Source: Nitrospinaceae bacterium
GTDB taxonomy: Bacteria > Nitrospinota > Nitrospinia > Nitrospinales > Nitrospinaceae
Direction of reading: 5' to 3'
DNA: 64,000 bases
NCBI GenBank assembly: GCA_024644405.1
Contig: JAHELC010000003.1
Location: 62,001 to 126,000 of the forward strand
Part shown: piece after piece, positions 18,451 through 29,158 of the stretch
Numbering within the stretch: the first letter of the stretch is position 1
Layout: every line of letters starts with the position of its first letter
The notes under the pieces: model-generated
The model's database searches: none
What the model saw: the letters and a program-made list of their open reading frames with translations, nothing else
What the model was told of the DNA's origin: nothing
Position numbers and translations under genes: made by a program

Positions 18451-18478
18451 GAAATTTGCTCCGGCGCTTCGCCGGTCA
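18451..18478. repeat. Palindromic repeat unit related to 15731-15760
   Basis: GAAATTTGCTCCGGCGCTTC followed by GCCGGTCA matches GCAAATTGCCTCCGGCGCTA followed by GCCGGCGTCA with few changes. Both contain a CCGGCG palindrome and occur between genes; this one runs into the last codon of the NHL gene. Confidence 0.5.
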
Positions 18479-20002
18479 GGCCAGTTCTTTGGGAGCCTCT
18501 TCGTCTTCTTCCTCGTCATCCATGAAATCGTCATCGTGGCCCATGAGCAGTTCGGGATCCTCGATGGCCGGATGATCGATCTCTTCCTGACTGCCCTCTT
18601 TGCTGAAATCCGGGAGTTCTTCCCAGATCACGACCCGGGAATTTCCCCGGTCACAGATATAGAGTTTTCCAATATCCTCTTCATCTTCCGGGTCCTCGTC
18701 GATAAACATACCGTAAGGATCGTTGAGGGAGCATTCAGAGGCCTCGCCGCCCCGGTTGAACTTGTGTCCGGAGAAAGTGTTCTGGCCGATCACCAGGTCC
18801 GCCGGCTGACCGTTCTCGGTCGGCAGTTCCTTCCAAACCAGGACCCGGTTGTTGCCGGAGTCTGACACAAACAGTCCCTTGCGGCCGAACACCACGTCAG
18901 TGGGGAAATACATGCTGCCCGCATCGCACCGTTTCATGCCCATGCCGGAATTGACCTCGCGGCTGTAGAAATCCTTTTGACCCAACACCAGGTCCGCGGG
19001 TACGCCGTTGTTCGAGGGCAGTTTATTCCAGATCAGGACGCGGTTGTTGCCCTGGTCCACTACAAACACTTTTCCGGTTTCCGCATGGTAGAAAGCGGAG
19101 GTGGGAAAACTCAACGTTTCCGGAGTCACATTGTCGAAATCGCCGCGGTTGGGCTCGCGTTCGTCCATGCCGAATTGTCCCAGGCAGACATCGGCGTTCC
19201 AACCATCATTGAAAGGAATTTTTTGCCAGATCAGAATCCGGTGATTGTCCTTGTCCGCCACGATGACATGCTGGTCGTCGCCGGAACGGATGGAGAAGGG
19301 GAAAAACAGGGATCCCGACCCAACCAGCCCACGCCGGTTGGCTTCACCGCATTCCAGATTGTCCTGGCCCAGAACGAGACCCGGAACTTCACCATCCTCG
19401 GAGGGCAGGCCGTTCCAGCGCAGGACACGATGGTTGCCGCTGTCGGACACGTAGAGTTTGCCGTCAATGACGGAAACCCCCGCCGGTGACGAGATGGTGT
19501 CTTCTTCCGGTTTACTGATGGTGAAACCTTCCAGGTTTTCATCACCCAGGCCGGAAGTCATTTCGTCGAGTGTGGTGCTGATACCGCGGTTTTCCAGACA
19601 GTCGGAGAAATCCTCCTGGCCCAGTACAATACTGGCGGGTTCGCCGTTTTCTTCGGGAAACTGGTTCCAGACCAGGACCCGGTGGTTGCCCCAATCGCTC
19701 ACAAACAGCATGTCACCATAGCGGCAGATGAATTGCGGTTCGGAAAGAGTGTTGTCGCCGGGATCGTCGGCCCCGCGGTTGGCTTCGCGGGTGGAAAAGT
19801 CGCCCTGGCCGATAACCATAATGGCGCCGATTTCCTTCTCTTCATCTTCCTCACCTTCGATCTCATCGAATTCATCCATTTCCTCTTCAGTGAGGGCATC
19901 TTCTTCGATTTCCTCTTCTTCTACCGCTTCGAGCCCTTCTTCGGCCACTTCGGTGGCCTCATCCTTGAGCTCTTCTTCTTTTTTGACCTGGTCTTCAGAC
20001 AT
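18476..20002 (-). CDS. NHL-type beta-propeller with strongly acidic N-terminus
   Basis: A 508-aa protein. About 60 N-terminal residues are dominated by Glu/Asp (EEEEIEEDALTEEEMDEFDE). Then come about six long repeats, each with V(S/A)D-x-GN(H/N)RVL-x-W and an intervening VLGQ-x-(D/N)-x-x-x-x-x-NRG: for example VSDWGNHRVLVWNQFP, VSDSGNHRVLRWNGLP, VVDQGNNRVLIWNKLP and ICDRGNSRVVIWEELP. The tail is again acidic (DDDFMDDEEEDEEAP). No signal peptide. The ATG at 20002 is preferred over a GTG at 20011 because GAGGTG sits eight bases before it. The role is unknown; it resembles the NHL protein at 10441 in plan but not in repeat length. Confidence 0.85.
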   Translation of the reverse strand: MSEDQVKKEEELKDEATEVAEEGLEAVEEEEIEEDALTEEEMDEFDEIEGEEDEEKEIGAIMVIGQGDFSTREANRGADDPGDNTLSEPQFICRYGDMLFVSDWGNHRVLVWNQFPEENGEPASIVLGQEDFSDCLENRGISTTLDEMTSGLGDENLEGFTISKPEEDTISSPAGVSVIDGKLYVSDSGNHRVLRWNGLPSEDGEVPGLVLGQDNLECGEANRRGLVGSGSLFFPFSIRSGDDQHVIVADKDNHRILIWQKIPFNDGWNADVCLGQFGMDEREPNRGDFDNVTPETLSFPTSAFYHAETGKVFVVDQGNNRVLIWNKLPSNNGVPADLVLGQKDFYSREVNSGMGMKRCDAGSMYFPTDVVFGRKGLFVSDSGNNRVLVWKELPTENGQPADLVIGQNTFSGHKFNRGGEASECSLNDPYGMFIDEDPEDEEDIGKLYICDRGNSRVVIWEELPDFSKEGSQEEIDHPAIEDPELLMGHDDDFMDDEEEDEEAPKELA

Positions 20003-20124
20003 CGAACCCACCTCTTTTAAAACTTAATAAATGGCTCAACCGGCCGAAAACTCTCGAGTCCCCGGATACCGGTGAATATAAAATTGTCAATGTACTGTAT
20101 TAATATCCCATACCGGGGTTTCGA

Positions 20125-21714
20125 TCAAGGTAAATTCAACCTTTGCCACATGGAAACCATCTTTCTACCATTGCGGTCCTGATAGGCTCCATCCCACACC
20201 GCAAAGGCGATCAGGATGGGCTGTTTCTTTCTGAACTTCACGTCCCACTTGTTGAGAGACTTTAAAGACCGACGAAAAACCACGTGCCACTGGCCATCTT
20301 TCCAGATCCCCTGGCCGATAATATTCTGCTTGGTTTTCGGTTGTGGGGTCAGCGTGCCGAACCCTTCAGCGTTCAATTCCTCGATGGGCACATTGCGGAA
20401 GGGGTTCAGGGACTCGACCGGGTTCACCTCGCCGCCGAAAATCATGACGTCCATATCCATGCCCTTGGTCGCATATTCCAGTTCCTCTTTGGTTTCGATC
20501 TCCGATTGCCAGTCGGCGCGCCATTGCCAGATGTTGACCGGCTTGGACCGGTTGCCCATTCCAAAGAACGGTTCGTTGTGACCATGGGTGTGCAGCAGCA
20601 CGTCACCCAGGGCGAATTCCAGCGCCACCGCGTCTTTGAAATCCTGATGGCGGCTGGAGGTCCGGTTGGCGACCGGATCGTCCCACACCACCCGGATGGC
20701 GATTTCCTTGTCGTTGACGACCGACTGAAACCGCACCCGGTTGACGGGATTTTTGCGGGCATTCAGCGCGATCAACTGCACGTCGTGGCTGGGTACGTCA
20801 TTCCAGAGCGGGCTTTCCGGATCGTCTACAATCTTTTGATCAGTTTTTTTGGAATAAAGATCGATTTCAAACTCGGCCTTCTGGAGCGTGTCCAGCTGGA
20901 TTTTGGACCGGACATAGGCCACCAGGTCCCAGCGTTCGGTATCGGTCAAATGACTGAACGATTTCATGGGGGTGCCGTCGATGCCGGTGGTCAGGGTCAT
21001 AAACAGATCCCGTTTTTCATAGCCGAATTTATTGATGTTGGGGTTGGTCAAATCGTAGACAAAGGCCCGGTGATCCCAGATGTCATACAGGGTGTCGGCC
21101 ATCGGTCCGCCGCCTTTAAGGTCGGTGCCGTGACAGCGGGAACATCGCATCTCCTGGTACACCTGCTCGCCTCTTTTTATGGAGTCGGGGGTCGTGGCAG
21201 GTGTGGGACCGGGTTCGATCGGCTTTTTGGGTCTCTCCGTTTTGAACCGGCTCGAAAAACTTTTGAGGTATTCCACGACCGCCCAGGTCTCGTCGTCGGT
21301 CAGGGCCGATTCCCAGGCCGGCATGGCGGTTCCCTTGATGCCCTTGCTGATGGTTTTGAAGATATCGGAGTCGAGCGGCAGGGAACCGGACGGGGTGGAG
21401 CGGTGTTTGAATACGCCTTTGCGGAAATCGCGCGGCCAAGGGTACAGGTAGGCCATCGCCTTGCCGCCGCCGTTGCCGTCTTCGCCGTGGCAGAACGTGC
21501 ACATGTGCTTGTACACGGTTGCGCCGATGGTTTTGCTGGTCTGCGTTCCGTGACCTTGATGACCCTCGGGGTCGTCGGTGTGGGCATACAGCCAACCGCT
21601 ATCCGGTCCGATAAACCCGAGAACCAGGGCGGCGACCAGAAGGCTCGGCAAAAAAAGACTTCTAACGGACCTGTATTTGGGGTTTCGATAAGGTGTATAA
21701 GGTTTCATTACCAT
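20125..21714 (-). CDS. Dihaem cytochrome c with EB_dh-type haem domain (NxrC-like)
   Basis: A 529-aa exported protein. After a hydrophobic signal (about 20-37), two cytochrome c domains carry CTFCH (72-76) and CSRCH (191-195), each followed by a candidate Met ligand region (GTAMPAWE near 129 and GTPMKSFS near 245). The C-terminal part (about 285-529) resembles the ethylbenzene dehydrogenase gamma-subunit haem-binding domain, with LALEFALG-like and AFAVWDGAYQDRNG segments. This domain occurs in gamma subunits of type II DMSO-reductase-family enzymes, including candidate nitrite oxidoreductase NxrC. It probably passes electrons from a periplasmic molybdoenzyme to cytochromes. The start overlaps the upstream gene by 53 bases, so coupling is likely; a second ATG at 21708 is possible. 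Confidence 0.72.
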   Translation of the reverse strand: MVMKPYTPYRNPKYRSVRSLFLPSLLVAALVLGFIGPDSGWLYAHTDDPEGHQGHGTQTSKTIGATVYKHMCTFCHGEDGNGGGKAMAYLYPWPRDFRKGVFKHRSTPSGSLPLDSDIFKTISKGIKGTAMPAWESALTDDETWAVVEYLKSFSSRFKTERPKKPIEPGPTPATTPDSIKRGEQVYQEMRCSRCHGTDLKGGGPMADTLYDIWDHRAFVYDLTNPNINKFGYEKRDLFMTLTTGIDGTPMKSFSHLTDTERWDLVAYVRSKIQLDTLQKAEFEIDLYSKKTDQKIVDDPESPLWNDVPSHDVQLIALNARKNPVNRVRFQSVVNDKEIAIRVVWDDPVANRTSSRHQDFKDAVALEFALGDVLLHTHGHNEPFFGMGNRSKPVNIWQWRADWQSEIETKEELEYATKGMDMDVMIFGGEVNPVESLNPFRNVPIEELNAEGFGTLTPQPKTKQNIIGQGIWKDGQWHVVFRRSLKSLNKWDVKFRKKQPILIAFAVWDGAYQDRNGRKMVSMWQRLNLP

Positions 21715-22162
21715 TCAAACCATCTTCAGCAACATCGATCCATATATTCGTGCAATTGCGGCGGTAGTCGACCCCCATACAGTAAAACAGGGGATACTTT
21801 GAGGTGAAATAAATCACCGGTTTGGAAACGTATACCGTCAGATGGTCGATTCTCGCACTCTGGATCGCGTCCTGGATGGACATTTTTTCGCTGGATCCCT
21901 TCCGGATGATCTTGCGAATGACCTGGTAATCGAGCTTTCCATCCAAATTCAGATCGTAATAGGTGGCGATCAAGCCGGGAATACTGATCAATTCCCATCC
22001 GCGGTAGGAAGGGTCCGCCCATCCCGGTTCCTTGGGAATCTGCACTTCACCGGACTTTTTGGGTAAAGGAGAGAAGGGGCCCTGGGCGTATGCCGGACTT
22101 TTGAACCCCATCATGTGAATCAGAACCAGTCCCACAAGGAAACCGGCAGACTGTACCTTCAT
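21662..22162 (-). CDS. Secreted protein of unknown function upstream of the NxrC-like gene
   Basis: A 166-aa protein with a signal peptide (MKVQSAGFLVGLVLIHMMGF, cleavage near AYA). The mature part has YYDLNLDGKLDYQVIRKI (about 69-86), an EF-hand-like D-x-N-x-D-G-x-x-D segment that could bind calcium, and two Cys (FYCMGVDYRRNCTNIW). I recognise no family. It ends 53 bases inside the following cytochrome gene, so the two are probably made together and may act together in the periplasm. Confidence 0.7.
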   Translation of the reverse strand: MKVQSAGFLVGLVLIHMMGFKSPAYAQGPFSPLPKKSGEVQIPKEPGWADPSYRGWELISIPGLIATYYDLNLDGKLDYQVIRKIIRKGSSEKMSIQDAIQSARIDHLTVYVSKPVIYFTSKYPLFYCMGVDYRRNCTNIWIDVAEDGLNGNETLYTLSKPQIQVR

Positions 22163-22354: not shown

Positions 22355-23098
22355 TTACGGTGCAGGGGTGTTATACAGCCGATCTGATACTTCAGGGGTG
22401 AGTCCTTCGGGTGGGCCGTCGTAGACGATTTCTCCGGAGTGCATGGCGATGAGGCGCAGGCCGTATTCGCGCGCGAGTTCCGGCAGGTGCAGGTTGCACA
22501 GCACGGTCACGCCGTCTTCCCGGTTGATGCGGCGCAGGATGTCGAGGATGGTGCGGGAGGTGGCGGGGTCGAGGCTGGCCACCGGCTCGTCGGCGAGAAT
22601 AATTTTCGGTTGCTGCATCAGGGCGCGGGCAATGCCCACTCGCTGCTGCTGGCCGCCGCTCAATTGATCCGCCCGCTGCCCGGCCTTCTCGCCGATCTCC
22701 ATGCGCTCCAGGTGATGGTGTGCCGCGGCGATCTCGTCTTGCGCAAAATAATTGATCAATGCCGACCAGGCGGACGTTCGGCCCAGGGCTCCGGCCAACA
22801 CATTGGTCCGGACCGACAACCGCGACACAAGGTTGTAGTTCTGAAAAATCATCCCGATGTTTTGGCGTTGGGACCGCAGACGTTTGCCGTCCATTGCAGT
22901 CACTTCCTGATCTTCGAAAAAGATTTTGCCCGAAGTCGGTTCCACAAGGCGGTTGATGCATCGCAGGAGGGTGGATTTACCGGCGCCGCTTTTGCCGAGG
23001 ATGACCACAAACTCCCCAGCTTCAAATTTCAGCGAAACATTATTCAGAGCGCGGGTGCCATCGCCATAAATTTTGGTTACCTGTTCGAGACGCAACAT
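22355..23098 (-). CDS. phnC: Phosphonate-type ABC transporter ATP-binding protein
   Basis: A 247-aa ATPase with Walker A GKSGAGKST (about 35-43), Q-loop FQNYNLVSRLSV, signature LSGGQQQR (about 144-151), Walker B IILADEP (about 165-171) and the switch His in CNLHLPE. The MIFQNYNLVSRLSVRTNVL segment is typical of PhnC. It lies 11 bases after the PhnD-like gene on the same strand. No permease gene (phnE) follows: the next 190 bases downstream are non-coding and are followed by the secreted-protein gene that starts at 22162. The true substrate may be phosphate, phosphite, phosphonate or another oxyanion. Confidence 0.87.
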   Translation of the reverse strand: MLRLEQVTKIYGDGTRALNNVSLKFEAGEFVVILGKSGAGKSTLLRCINRLVEPTSGKIFFEDQEVTAMDGKRLRSQRQNIGMIFQNYNLVSRLSVRTNVLAGALGRTSAWSALINYFAQDEIAAAHHHLERMEIGEKAGQRADQLSGGQQQRVGIARALMQQPKIILADEPVASLDPATSRTILDILRRINREDGVTVLCNLHLPELAREYGLRLIAMHSGEIVYDGPPEGLTPEVSDRLYNTPAP

Positions 23099-23109
23099 AA
23101 CAGTCTTTT

Positions 23110-24024
23110 CTAGGGGTTGGCTTTTTTCAAATCCAGGTGGAGCAGGCGGCCCGCCTCGCGCACCGGATCGAAAAACGCGTCGAAATCCATGAGCCCACTG
23201 ACCCCGTACAGCCGTTTGAAGACACGACTGCCTTCCGGCGTCTTCACCAATTGCATCAGGCCGGTTTTGATTTTCTGCCTGAGGGCCGGAGCGAGGTCCT
23301 TTCTGGCAGATATCGTGTCGTTGGGAATGTCTTTGGTGTAGGCAATCACGCGGAGCCTGCTGAACACTTCCGGATACGTTTTGGCGACGGTGGCGCGGGC
23401 ATCATCATACGTCGCTCCGGCGTCGACCTCCCCTTTGAGGACGGACAGGATCACCGCGTTGTGCGATCCGGCAAACAGGGACTGAGAAAACAGCTGGTCG
23501 GGATTCAGTCCTTTCGACAACAGCAGGGACTTCGGGTACAGGTGGCCGGAGGTGGAAGCGGGATCCACGAACGCGAATTTTTTTCCTTTCAAGTCGGACA
23601 ACCTGTGGATGTTACTGTCGGCACGAACGATAATCTGTCCCCGATAAAACGGACTGCCAAAGCGAACGACGATCAGCAATAAATCGACATCGTATTTCTG
23701 TTTCGCCAGCACGTAGGAAAAAGAGGCGAGCCATCCGATATCCACTTTGCCGGCACCCATGGCCTCGATCACCGCGGCATAGCTGGAGGCGATCGAGGTT
23801 TTGAAATGCAGGCCGGTGATTTTCTGCAGGCGACGGGCGATCTCCTCGCCGCCTTCCAGAATGGTCTGTGCTTCGCCGGAAGGCACGAACATCATGCGAA
23901 TCGGGTGTTGCACTGTACCCAGCCGGTCTTCGGCGAATACCAGGGCTGGATGAACAAGTGACAGGACCAGAACCCAGGTTCCGGCTTTCAAAAACGATAT
24001 TAGGGTTGGACTCGGTTGCCGCAT
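23110..24024 (-). CDS. phnD: PhnD-type phosphate/phosphonate substrate-binding protein
   Basis: A 304-aa periplasmic binding protein with a signal peptide (FLKAGTWVLVLSLVHPALVF, cleavage near AED). Family features are MMFVPSGEAQTILEGG (about 45), GKVDIGWLASFSYVLA (about 92), FVDPASTSGHLYPKSLL (about 151), AGSHNAVILSVLKGEVDAGA (about 184) and IPNDTISARKDL (about 232). The ATG at 24024 has GGAGAG four bases upstream; a GTG four codons earlier is less likely. Forms a two-gene unit with phnC and lacks a nearby permease. Several PhnD-like proteins in nitrifiers might bind other anions, so the ligand is open. Confidence 0.85.
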   Translation of the reverse strand: MRQPSPTLISFLKAGTWVLVLSLVHPALVFAEDRLGTVQHPIRMMFVPSGEAQTILEGGEEIARRLQKITGLHFKTSIASSYAAVIEAMGAGKVDIGWLASFSYVLAKQKYDVDLLLIVVRFGSPFYRGQIIVRADSNIHRLSDLKGKKFAFVDPASTSGHLYPKSLLLSKGLNPDQLFSQSLFAGSHNAVILSVLKGEVDAGATYDDARATVAKTYPEVFSRLRVIAYTKDIPNDTISARKDLAPALRQKIKTGLMQLVKTPEGSRVFKRLYGVSGLMDFDAFFDPVREAGRLLHLDLKKANP

Positions 24025-24083
24025 CGTTCTCTCCACTTGTTTCGAGGAACGTTACCATACCGGATTTTCAGAAAACAGACATA

Positions 24084-27996: not shown

Positions 27997-28485
27997 CTAT
28001 TCCTCAACAATGGCAACGGATTTCATTTCCATCCGCTGATCCGGATTGTCGTTGGAGTCGCGGGATTCATTGACGATCTTATCCGCCACGTCCATACCCT
28101 CGGTGACCTTGCCGAACGCCGTGTACTGGCCATCCAGAAAGAACGAATCCTTGACGCAGATGAAAAACTGCGATCCCGCGCTGTTGGGATCTTGAGATCG
28201 CGCCATGGAGAGCACGCCGCGCTCGTGCTTGACGTCGTTGAATTCGGCGTCGATGCTGTATCCCGGGCCGCCTGTGCCGTGGCTGGAACGATTGTCGGAT
28301 TTCGAATTGGGGTCTCCCCCCTGGATCATAAAACCGGGAATCACCCGGTGAAACGTGGTGCCGTCATAAAAATTCTTACCGGCCAGTTCCTTGAAATTTT
28401 TGACGTGTCCCGGAGCTTTGTCTTCAAAAAATTCCACTTTAATATTCCCGTGTGTGGTTTCGATTACTGCGACTTCCTTACCCAT
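27997..28485 (-). CDS. Cytoplasmic cyclophilin-type peptidyl-prolyl isomerase
   Basis: A 162-aa cyclophilin with FHRVIPGFMIQGGDP (about 45-59, catalytic Arg and Phe-Met-Gln), LSMARSQDPNSAGSQFFI (about 93-110) and FLDGQYTAFGKVTEGMDVAD (about 115-134). The prokaryote-type short loop is present. No signal peptide, so cytoplasmic. It is 23 bases downstream of a close homologue that carries a signal peptide (28509-29057), evidently a duplicated pair serving two compartments. Confidence 0.95.
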   Translation of the reverse strand: MGKEVAVIETTHGNIKVEFFEDKAPGHVKNFKELAGKNFYDGTTFHRVIPGFMIQGGDPNSKSDNRSSHGTGGPGYSIDAEFNDVKHERGVLSMARSQDPNSAGSQFFICVKDSFFLDGQYTAFGKVTEGMDVADKIVNESRDSNDNPDQRMEMKSVAIVEE

Positions 28486-28508
28486 AAAAAGCTCCTTTGG
28501 CTTAAGAA

Positions 28509-29057
28509 TTATTCTTTGGATTTAATGATAATTTTCATACTGATGGATTCGAGGGGATTGTCCCTTGCGTCCCGCGAAACGTTCACGATTTTATCCGCCA
28601 CGTCCATCCCTTGGGTCACTCTGCCGAATACAGTGTATTTTCCGTCGAGAAAATGAGCATCTTTGACCACGATGAAGAACTGTGATCCTGCGCTATCCGG
28701 ATCCTGGGAGCGGGCCATGGACAAAATTCCACGGTCATGCTTGGTACCATTGAACTCAGCCTTGATGTTATAACCGGGCCCGCCCATGCCGTGCATGGAA
28801 CGATCCGGCTTTTTGGAAAAGGGGTCGCCGCCCTGAATCATGAACCCGGGGATCACCCGATGAAAGAGAGTCCCATTGTAAAACCCCGTCTTAGCGAGAG
28901 TCTTGAAATTTTTGACGTGACCGGGGGCCTTGTCCTCGAAAAATTCCAATTCGATATTGCCGAACTTGGTTTCAATAACGGCAATGTCCTCCGCCAGCGC
29001 CGAACCCGCACCTCCTGCCAGCAACGCAACCCAAAGCAATATAATGATCTTTCGCAT
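28509..29057 (-). CDS. Exported cyclophilin-type peptidyl-prolyl isomerase
   Basis: A 182-aa cyclophilin with a signal peptide (MRKIIILLWVALLAGG, cleavage near ALA) followed by the same core as its neighbour: FHRVIPGFMIQGGDP, LSMARSQDPDSAGSQFFIVV and FGRVTQGMDVADKIV. It should act in the periplasm on exported proteins. The ATG at 29057 gives a normal signal peptide; an in-frame ATG at 29090 would add 11 residues and cannot be excluded. It is probably co-transcribed with the cytoplasmic copy. Confidence 0.93.
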   Translation of the reverse strand: MRKIIILLWVALLAGGAGSALAEDIAVIETKFGNIELEFFEDKAPGHVKNFKTLAKTGFYNGTLFHRVIPGFMIQGGDPFSKKPDRSMHGMGGPGYNIKAEFNGTKHDRGILSMARSQDPDSAGSQFFIVVKDAHFLDGKYTVFGRVTQGMDVADKIVNVSRDARDNPLESISMKIIIKSKE

Positions 29058-29158
29058 GGAACCCCCGAAAAAATGATTTAAACTATTCATTAACCCCCAA
29101 CGGTCCCAATACCGATCACCAGGCTATCGAGGGTCTGTAGTGGGGCCATTGTAAAGGA

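Follow-up and report, generated by a model that had tools for sequence, protein, structure and literature searches.

Among known marine nitrite oxidizers, the Nitrospinota are the most abundant, and how electrons leave their nitrite oxidoreductase (NXR) is not settled. In Nitrospina gracilis, alternative NxrC proteins (alt_NxrC1-4) carry one to three c-haem sites together with a haem-b domain of the DMSO reductase type, and alt_NxrC2 and alt_NxrC4 are predicted to be periplasmic (PMC3578206, Luecker 2013). A comparison of three Nitrospinae revealed homologs of all putative NxrC proteins in other members of the group (PMC8026999). Both papers leave open the role of NxrC-like proteins in nitrite oxidation (PMC3578206, PMC8026999), and the second also leaves undecided which of these many proteins are involved. 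In Nitrospira moscoviensis, transcription of the gene for the dihaem alternative NxrC is about 4-fold lower than that of nxrC (PMC6606698), which speaks against this cousin being a core subunit of NXR; nxrC of Nitrospira is unlinked to nxrA and nxrB (PMC6606698).

Here we describe a cytochrome encoded in a 64-kb stretch of DNA (the window; G000:C21:62001-126000) from an assembly of 2.98 Mb that is 96% complete and belongs to the Nitrospinota, the near relatives of the genome in the named collection being Nitrospinaceae. In kind, the protein is one of the alternative NxrC proteins, a group first described in 2013. To this we add its separation from the type found in Nitrospira and anammox bacteria, a match in architecture to operon-borne gamma subunits, a conserved gene trio and a gene overlap that appears to be selected. 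Like alt_NxrC of N. gracilis, the cytochrome combines c-haem motifs, within the range of one to three, with a haem-b domain, and it resembles alt_NxrC2 and alt_NxrC4 in being predicted to be periplasmic, but a coupled partner, an NHL gene and a match to operon-type architectures are not described for the N. gracilis proteins in the parts of PMC3578206 and PMC8026999 used here. With alt_nxrC_2 of N. moscoviensis and its anammox equivalent it shares the order of two cytochrome c domains followed by an EB_dh domain as well as export. It differs in lacking the C-terminal transmembrane helix of the N. moscoviensis protein (PMC6606698) and in its gene neighbours, which in the Nitrospira alt_nxrC_2 or bd-cluster type are a dihaem cytochrome and a bd-like oxidase.

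Domain structure and haem ligands of the cytochrome

The cytochrome gene occupies positions 20125-21714 on the minus strand, as do all features given below, and encodes 529 amino acids. Pfam, NCBIfam and PDB matches identify the product as a predicted dihaem-c/haem-b orphan of the NXR gamma (EB_dh) lineage. A Sec signal peptide comprises about residues 1-44 (21583-21714; hydropathy scan, cleavage site by eye) and precedes a first cytochrome c domain (PF13442, residues 63-150, 21265-21528), a second one (PF00034, residues 179-270, 20905-21180) and a C-terminal EB_dh domain for haem b (PF09459, residues 303-518, 20161-20808) that scores 89.2 bits against a cut-off of 33.3. The CXXCH motifs begin at residues 72 (CTFCH, 21487-21501) and 191 (CSRCH, 21130-21144), and their cysteines and histidine are invariant in 18 of 18 aligned orthologs. 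The same holds for Met386 (20557-20559) and Lys518 (20161-20163), which align with Met155 and Lys305, the haem-b ligands of Kuenenia NXR-C (PMC8387239). Because Met386 and Lys518 occupy these ligand positions and both CXXCH motifs are present, the cytochrome should carry one haem b and two haems c. Domains, haem motifs, expected haem-b ligands and export signal can all be read from the sequence itself.

The top NCBIfam match is TIGR03477, the haem-b subunit of DMSO-reductase-II enzymes, at 122.9 bits, which is below the cut-off of 169.85; the operon-borne NxrC of the same genome likewise stays below it (132.0 bits). Among solved sequences, the c part is closest to the Kuenenia dihaem cytochrome 6h5l_B (7.8e-45), which has no EB_dh domain, and the EB_dh part to subunit C of Kuenenia NXR, 7b04_C (1.1e-28). 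The latter, like the NxrC proteins from nxrABC operons, shares with the cytochrome the EB_dh fold, the Met and Lys ligands and the NAEGFGTLT motif (LNAEGFGTLT in the cytochrome and in Kuenenia NXR-C), but lacks c-haems and is encoded together with nxrA and nxrB. A further motif of the cytochrome, WQWRADW, has near-identical counterparts in the operon-borne gamma subunits introduced below. The hydropathy scan showed no C-terminal transmembrane segment, and since the signal peptide is the sole hydrophobic stretch, a role as membrane anchor was ruled out. The structure model of the cytochrome is poor (mean pLDDT 54).

NXR genes and EB_dh proteins of the host genome

Genes for the alpha and beta subunits of NXR are absent from the 64-kb window, just as the initial annotation had remarked. 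That note had also allowed for a genome devoid of NxrA and NxrB, and here the wider search gave a clear answer: the end of contig C33 carries, in this order, nxrA (944 amino acids, cut by the contig end), nxrB (425 amino acids) and nxrC (337 amino acids), and the genome is that of a Nitrospinota nitrite oxidizer. The cytochrome gene lies on a different contig, C21, and is thus not encoded with nxrA and nxrB. Six EB_dh proteins were found in the genome, namely NxrC, one adjoining a TorD-type chaperone and resembling NxrC3 of N. gracilis, a further single-domain protein, the cytochrome described here, a dihaem protein of 625 amino acids on contig C23 and a trihaem protein of 650 amino acids on contig C24. 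This set resembles that of NxrC and alternative NxrC genes in N. gracilis (PMC3578206), and the cytochrome is, as had been proposed, one of several stand-alone candidates of NXR gamma type. The more general proposal that two c-haems fused to EB_dh constitute the gamma plan of NXR fits the alternative NxrC candidates (PMC3578206, PMC6606698) but not the operon-borne NxrC, which in this genome consists of EB_dh only, without c-haems. The trihaem protein has lost the haem-b methionine, and its gene adjoins those for a trihaem cytochrome and a 1639-residue protein with multicopper oxidase domains, the whole group lying at 114-8442 of L016 (G000:C24).

Enzymes for chlorate, selenate, ethylbenzene and dimethylsulfide use EB_dh domains too (PMC3578206), and the cytochrome might accordingly be taken for the gamma subunit of a different molybdenum enzyme in this organism. 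We consider this very improbable. The three other PF00384 proteins of the genome, of which roughly 4% is unassembled, are NuoG-like (two) and FdhF/YdeP-like, so that NxrAB is the only DMSO-reductase-II pair found; no other type-II alpha subunit was found in the genome.

Phylogenetic position and operon-borne gamma subunits

Full-length homologs with about 36-40% identity to the cytochrome are encoded after nxrA-, nxrB- and torD-like genes in Elusimicrobiota, Acidobacteriota, Desulfobacteraceae and Planctomycetota (L112, L113, L114, L205, L206). Judged by sequence comparison, the architecture of the cytochrome matches that of these operon-borne gamma subunits, which also keep the haem-b ligands; they differ from it in their linkage to genes for alpha, beta and TorD, and homologs of the partner or the NHL protein were not detected in these five loci. 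One Nitrospinales genome (G049, L167/L227) also has a set of nxrA, nxrB, torD and dihaem gamma genes. The nxrA and nxrB of this set (L227, G049:C73, 2095-9696) share no more than about 59-62% identity with their counterparts in the window's genome. On two contigs labelled Nitrososphaerales (L120, L121; isolates Arabian11_MAG_28, ETNP2_MAG_84), nxrA-, nxrB-, gamma- and torD-like genes follow one another.

A tree was calculated for EB_dh proteins. The alternative NxrC type of Nitrospira and anammox bacteria, which adjoins a separate dihaem cytochrome and whose assignment to these organisms is based on phylum and gene order as well as on the nxr cluster of L210, forms a clade of its own (100/100) that does not contain the cytochrome. 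The latter lies on the opposite side of the tree, which also holds all operon-borne gamma subunits; there it forms a clade of Nitrospinales proteins (100/99) with the C23 paralog and a third paralog. The cytochrome is therefore, as far as this tree reaches, not part of the Nitrospira/anammox alternative NxrC clade, and it is one of three orphan paralogs specific to the order. A sister relation of the orphan clade to the Nitrospira/anammox alternative NxrC clade was not rejected by the AU test (p 0.16), nor was one to the core NxrC of Nitrospinota (p 0.11); since the first of these topologies is allowed, a nested position of the cytochrome among the operon gammas is not claimed. Methionine and lysine ligands are kept in all 13 rows of the cytochrome's clade and in every operon-borne gamma sampled. 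Both are mostly lost in the Nitrospira-type alternative NxrC rows; most anammox-type rows keep them. A grouping with unrelated EB_dh cytochromes, the objection foreseen in the initial annotation, was thus not recovered: the cytochrome falls among gamma subunits of NXR type and has both haem-b ligands.

Conservation across the Nitrospinales

Orthologs of the cytochrome are present in 56 of 64 Nitrospinales genomes, and their identity of 62-91% across the order shows that the open reading frame is not a chance one. A second gene, termed partner in the following, was found in 55 of these 56 genomes; in 53 the two lie on the same contig and strand, with the matched segments overlapping or at most 197 bases apart. 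The partner occurs without the cytochrome in two further genomes, and six of the 64 have neither gene. Among these six, the single-contig genome G057 has a run of N beside its NHL gene, and in G065 the C-terminus of the cytochrome appears at a contig end, again beside the NHL gene, so that gaps in the data account for at least some of the exceptions. A loss of the cytochrome in G057 is not evidenced, since the run of N is its expected place. A contig filed under Neomarinimicrobiota (L091) encodes this Nitrospinales cytochrome at 61% identity and is probably misassigned.

A start codon inside the partner gene

The reading frames for the cytochrome and for the partner (21662-22162, 166 amino acids) were confirmed, and they have exactly 53 bases in common (21662-21714). 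The overlap measures 53 bases in 36 distinct ortholog pairs, 47 in 14 and 11 in three, so that all but three of the 53 pairs have one of the two longer overlaps. The start ATG of the cytochrome sits within the codons for an invariant Asn-Gly-Asn-Glu of the partner, and protein conservation alone could therefore keep it, in which case pairing and overlap might be an accident of annotation. If selection acted on the partner protein alone, AAT and AAC should be used at these asparagines as elsewhere. The start-forming asparagine is encoded by AAT in 48 of 52 cases, compared with 159 of 275 (58%) other asparagine codons (Fisher p 5e-7, an optimistic value as the sequences are kin and not independent). 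The only three sequences with neither ATG (L055, L101, L105) have AAC at both sites, and L055 is, by its coordinates, among the three pairs with the 11-base overlap, an indication that the start codon has shifted in this group. Together with the adjacency of the two genes in 53 genomes, these observations render an annotation accident barely credible. The simplest reading is that the start inside the partner gene is under selection, and hence that the two genes are translationally coupled.

The partner protein

The partner is predicted to be secreted (signal peptide by eye) and has an invariant cysteine pair and two loops rich in aspartate and asparagine. Loop 1 (DLNLDGKLD, residues 70-78, 21929-21955) has Asp70, Asp74 and Asp78 invariant in 19 orthologs, and the EF-hand-like loop that had been noticed in this protein is thus real and conserved. 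Loop 2 (DVAEDGLNGNE, residues 143-153, 21704-21736), the NGNE codons of which hold the cytochrome's start, is even more conserved, with Asp143 and the residues from Glu146 to Glu153 invariant. No family in Pfam or NCBIfam, including the Pfam EF-hand, matched the partner, and a fold search with its model (pLDDT 73, i.e., moderate confidence) gave no trustworthy match among solved folds (best E 0.2). Searches of the phylum beyond the order did not recover it; in Nitrospirota there were short C-terminal matches only. Elsewhere in the genome, two loci encode distant paralogs of the partner with clearer loops of the DxDxDG type, which favours calcium binding, and the partner probably binds calcium through its two loops. 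From the tight coupling we infer that it is an accessory to the cytochrome. The paralogs are likewise secreted (L052, 4456-4941; L053, 4746-5207), and one of them lies about 2 kb from a gene for a mono-haem cytochrome c. An identity of the partner with the tubule protein NXR-T, a four-helix cytochrome with a single haem (PMC8387239), was ruled out because the partner lacks any haem motif.

A proposed role in electron transfer from NXR

On balance, we think it probable that the protein acts in the periplasm as a b+c+c cytochrome, relaying electrons from NXR to carriers of the c type with help from the calcium-loop partner. It would derive from the gamma subunit of a molybdenum enzyme of NXR type and no longer lie beside genes for alpha and beta. 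Its haem-b domain would take electrons from NXR, either at NxrB, where it would stand in for NxrC, or from the haem of NxrC, and its two c-haems would pass them to soluble c-type cytochromes and on to the terminal oxidase, while the small, periplasmic and translationally coupled partner would help it to fold, stay stable or dock. Docking to NXR, the direction of electron flow, haem loading, calcium binding and the partner's role are inferred from sequence data, and service in nitrite oxidation is an unproven candidate role. Support for the relay comes from the domains and relatives of the cytochrome, its retained ligands and motifs, the operon-type architecture elsewhere and the nxrABC genes in the genome; order-wide orthologs, tight pairing and the AAT bias at the start speak for a relay with this partner. 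Against it count the absence of nxrAB beside any of the orthologs in Nitrospinales, the poor structure model, the permitted sister relation to the Nitrospira/anammox clade and the lower transcription of the dihaem alternative NxrC in N. moscoviensis.

An orphan locus without nxrAB would also suit a free periplasmic electron-transfer cytochrome that has kept the gamma fold, never docks to NXR and moves electrons between different donors and acceptors in the periplasm, for instance those of a stress system or bc-type complexes serving reverse electron flow. In line with this, the signal peptide is the only transmembrane-like segment, the three diverged paralogs suggest different partners, and none of the neighbours (NHL protein, PhnD/PhnC-like proteins, mono-haem cytochrome c) is an NXR gene. 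We nevertheless regard it as rather unlikely, as the haem-b ligands and gamma-typical motifs are invariant, although the ligands are gone from many Nitrospira alternative NxrC rows, and NxrAB is the sole pair of its type in the genome. In a stricter form of the relay, some of the NxrAB complexes would contain the cytochrome instead of NxrC, as a genuine alternative gamma subunit whose two additional c-haems provide a second electron exit, e.g., under other oxygen or nitrite conditions. The shared architecture with gammas of nxrA-nxrB-torD operons in other phyla, the NxrC-like ligands and motifs and the full set with dihaem gamma in the Nitrospinales genome G049 make this possible, if less than likely, because the orthologs have no adjoining alpha and beta genes and NxrB would need to accept both NxrC and the cytochrome. 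Quite unlikely in our estimation is a still more specific scheme for Nitrospinales, in which one NxrAB core would serve two kinds of gamma subunit and the translationally coupled partner, as a hitherto undescribed calcium-loop protein of the periplasm, would control assembly or docking of a dedicated three-haem gamma at the second exit. Whichever role applies, the cytochrome stands out by its order-wide conservation, its competence for haem b as judged by residues and its tie to a specific small partner, and it can now be told apart from the alternative NxrC proteins found in Nitrospira and anammox bacteria. Together with its partner, it offers a concrete target for study in cultured Nitrospina.

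Gene neighbourhood

A third conserved gene (18476-20011) encodes an NHL-repeat (PF01436, beta-propeller) protein of 511 amino acids in which we saw no signal peptide. It lies directly downstream of the cytochrome gene in the relatives examined and is kept there even in a distant family that lacks the upstream Phn-like genes. By gene order, the conserved unit therefore appears to comprise partner, cytochrome and NHL protein, so that the coupling of the cytochrome to a secreted protein, as originally described, is borne out by the pairing but captures only part of a larger unit. Upstream (22355-24036, minus strand), genes for a PhnC-like ATPase and a PhnD-like binding protein lie side by side without an adjoining permease gene; the pair is kept in several relatives and absent at that place in G009 and G018. 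Further along the window (27997-29090, minus strand), two adjacent similar reading frames of 162 and 193 amino acids look, by eye, like tandem peptidyl-prolyl isomerases of the cyclophilin type.
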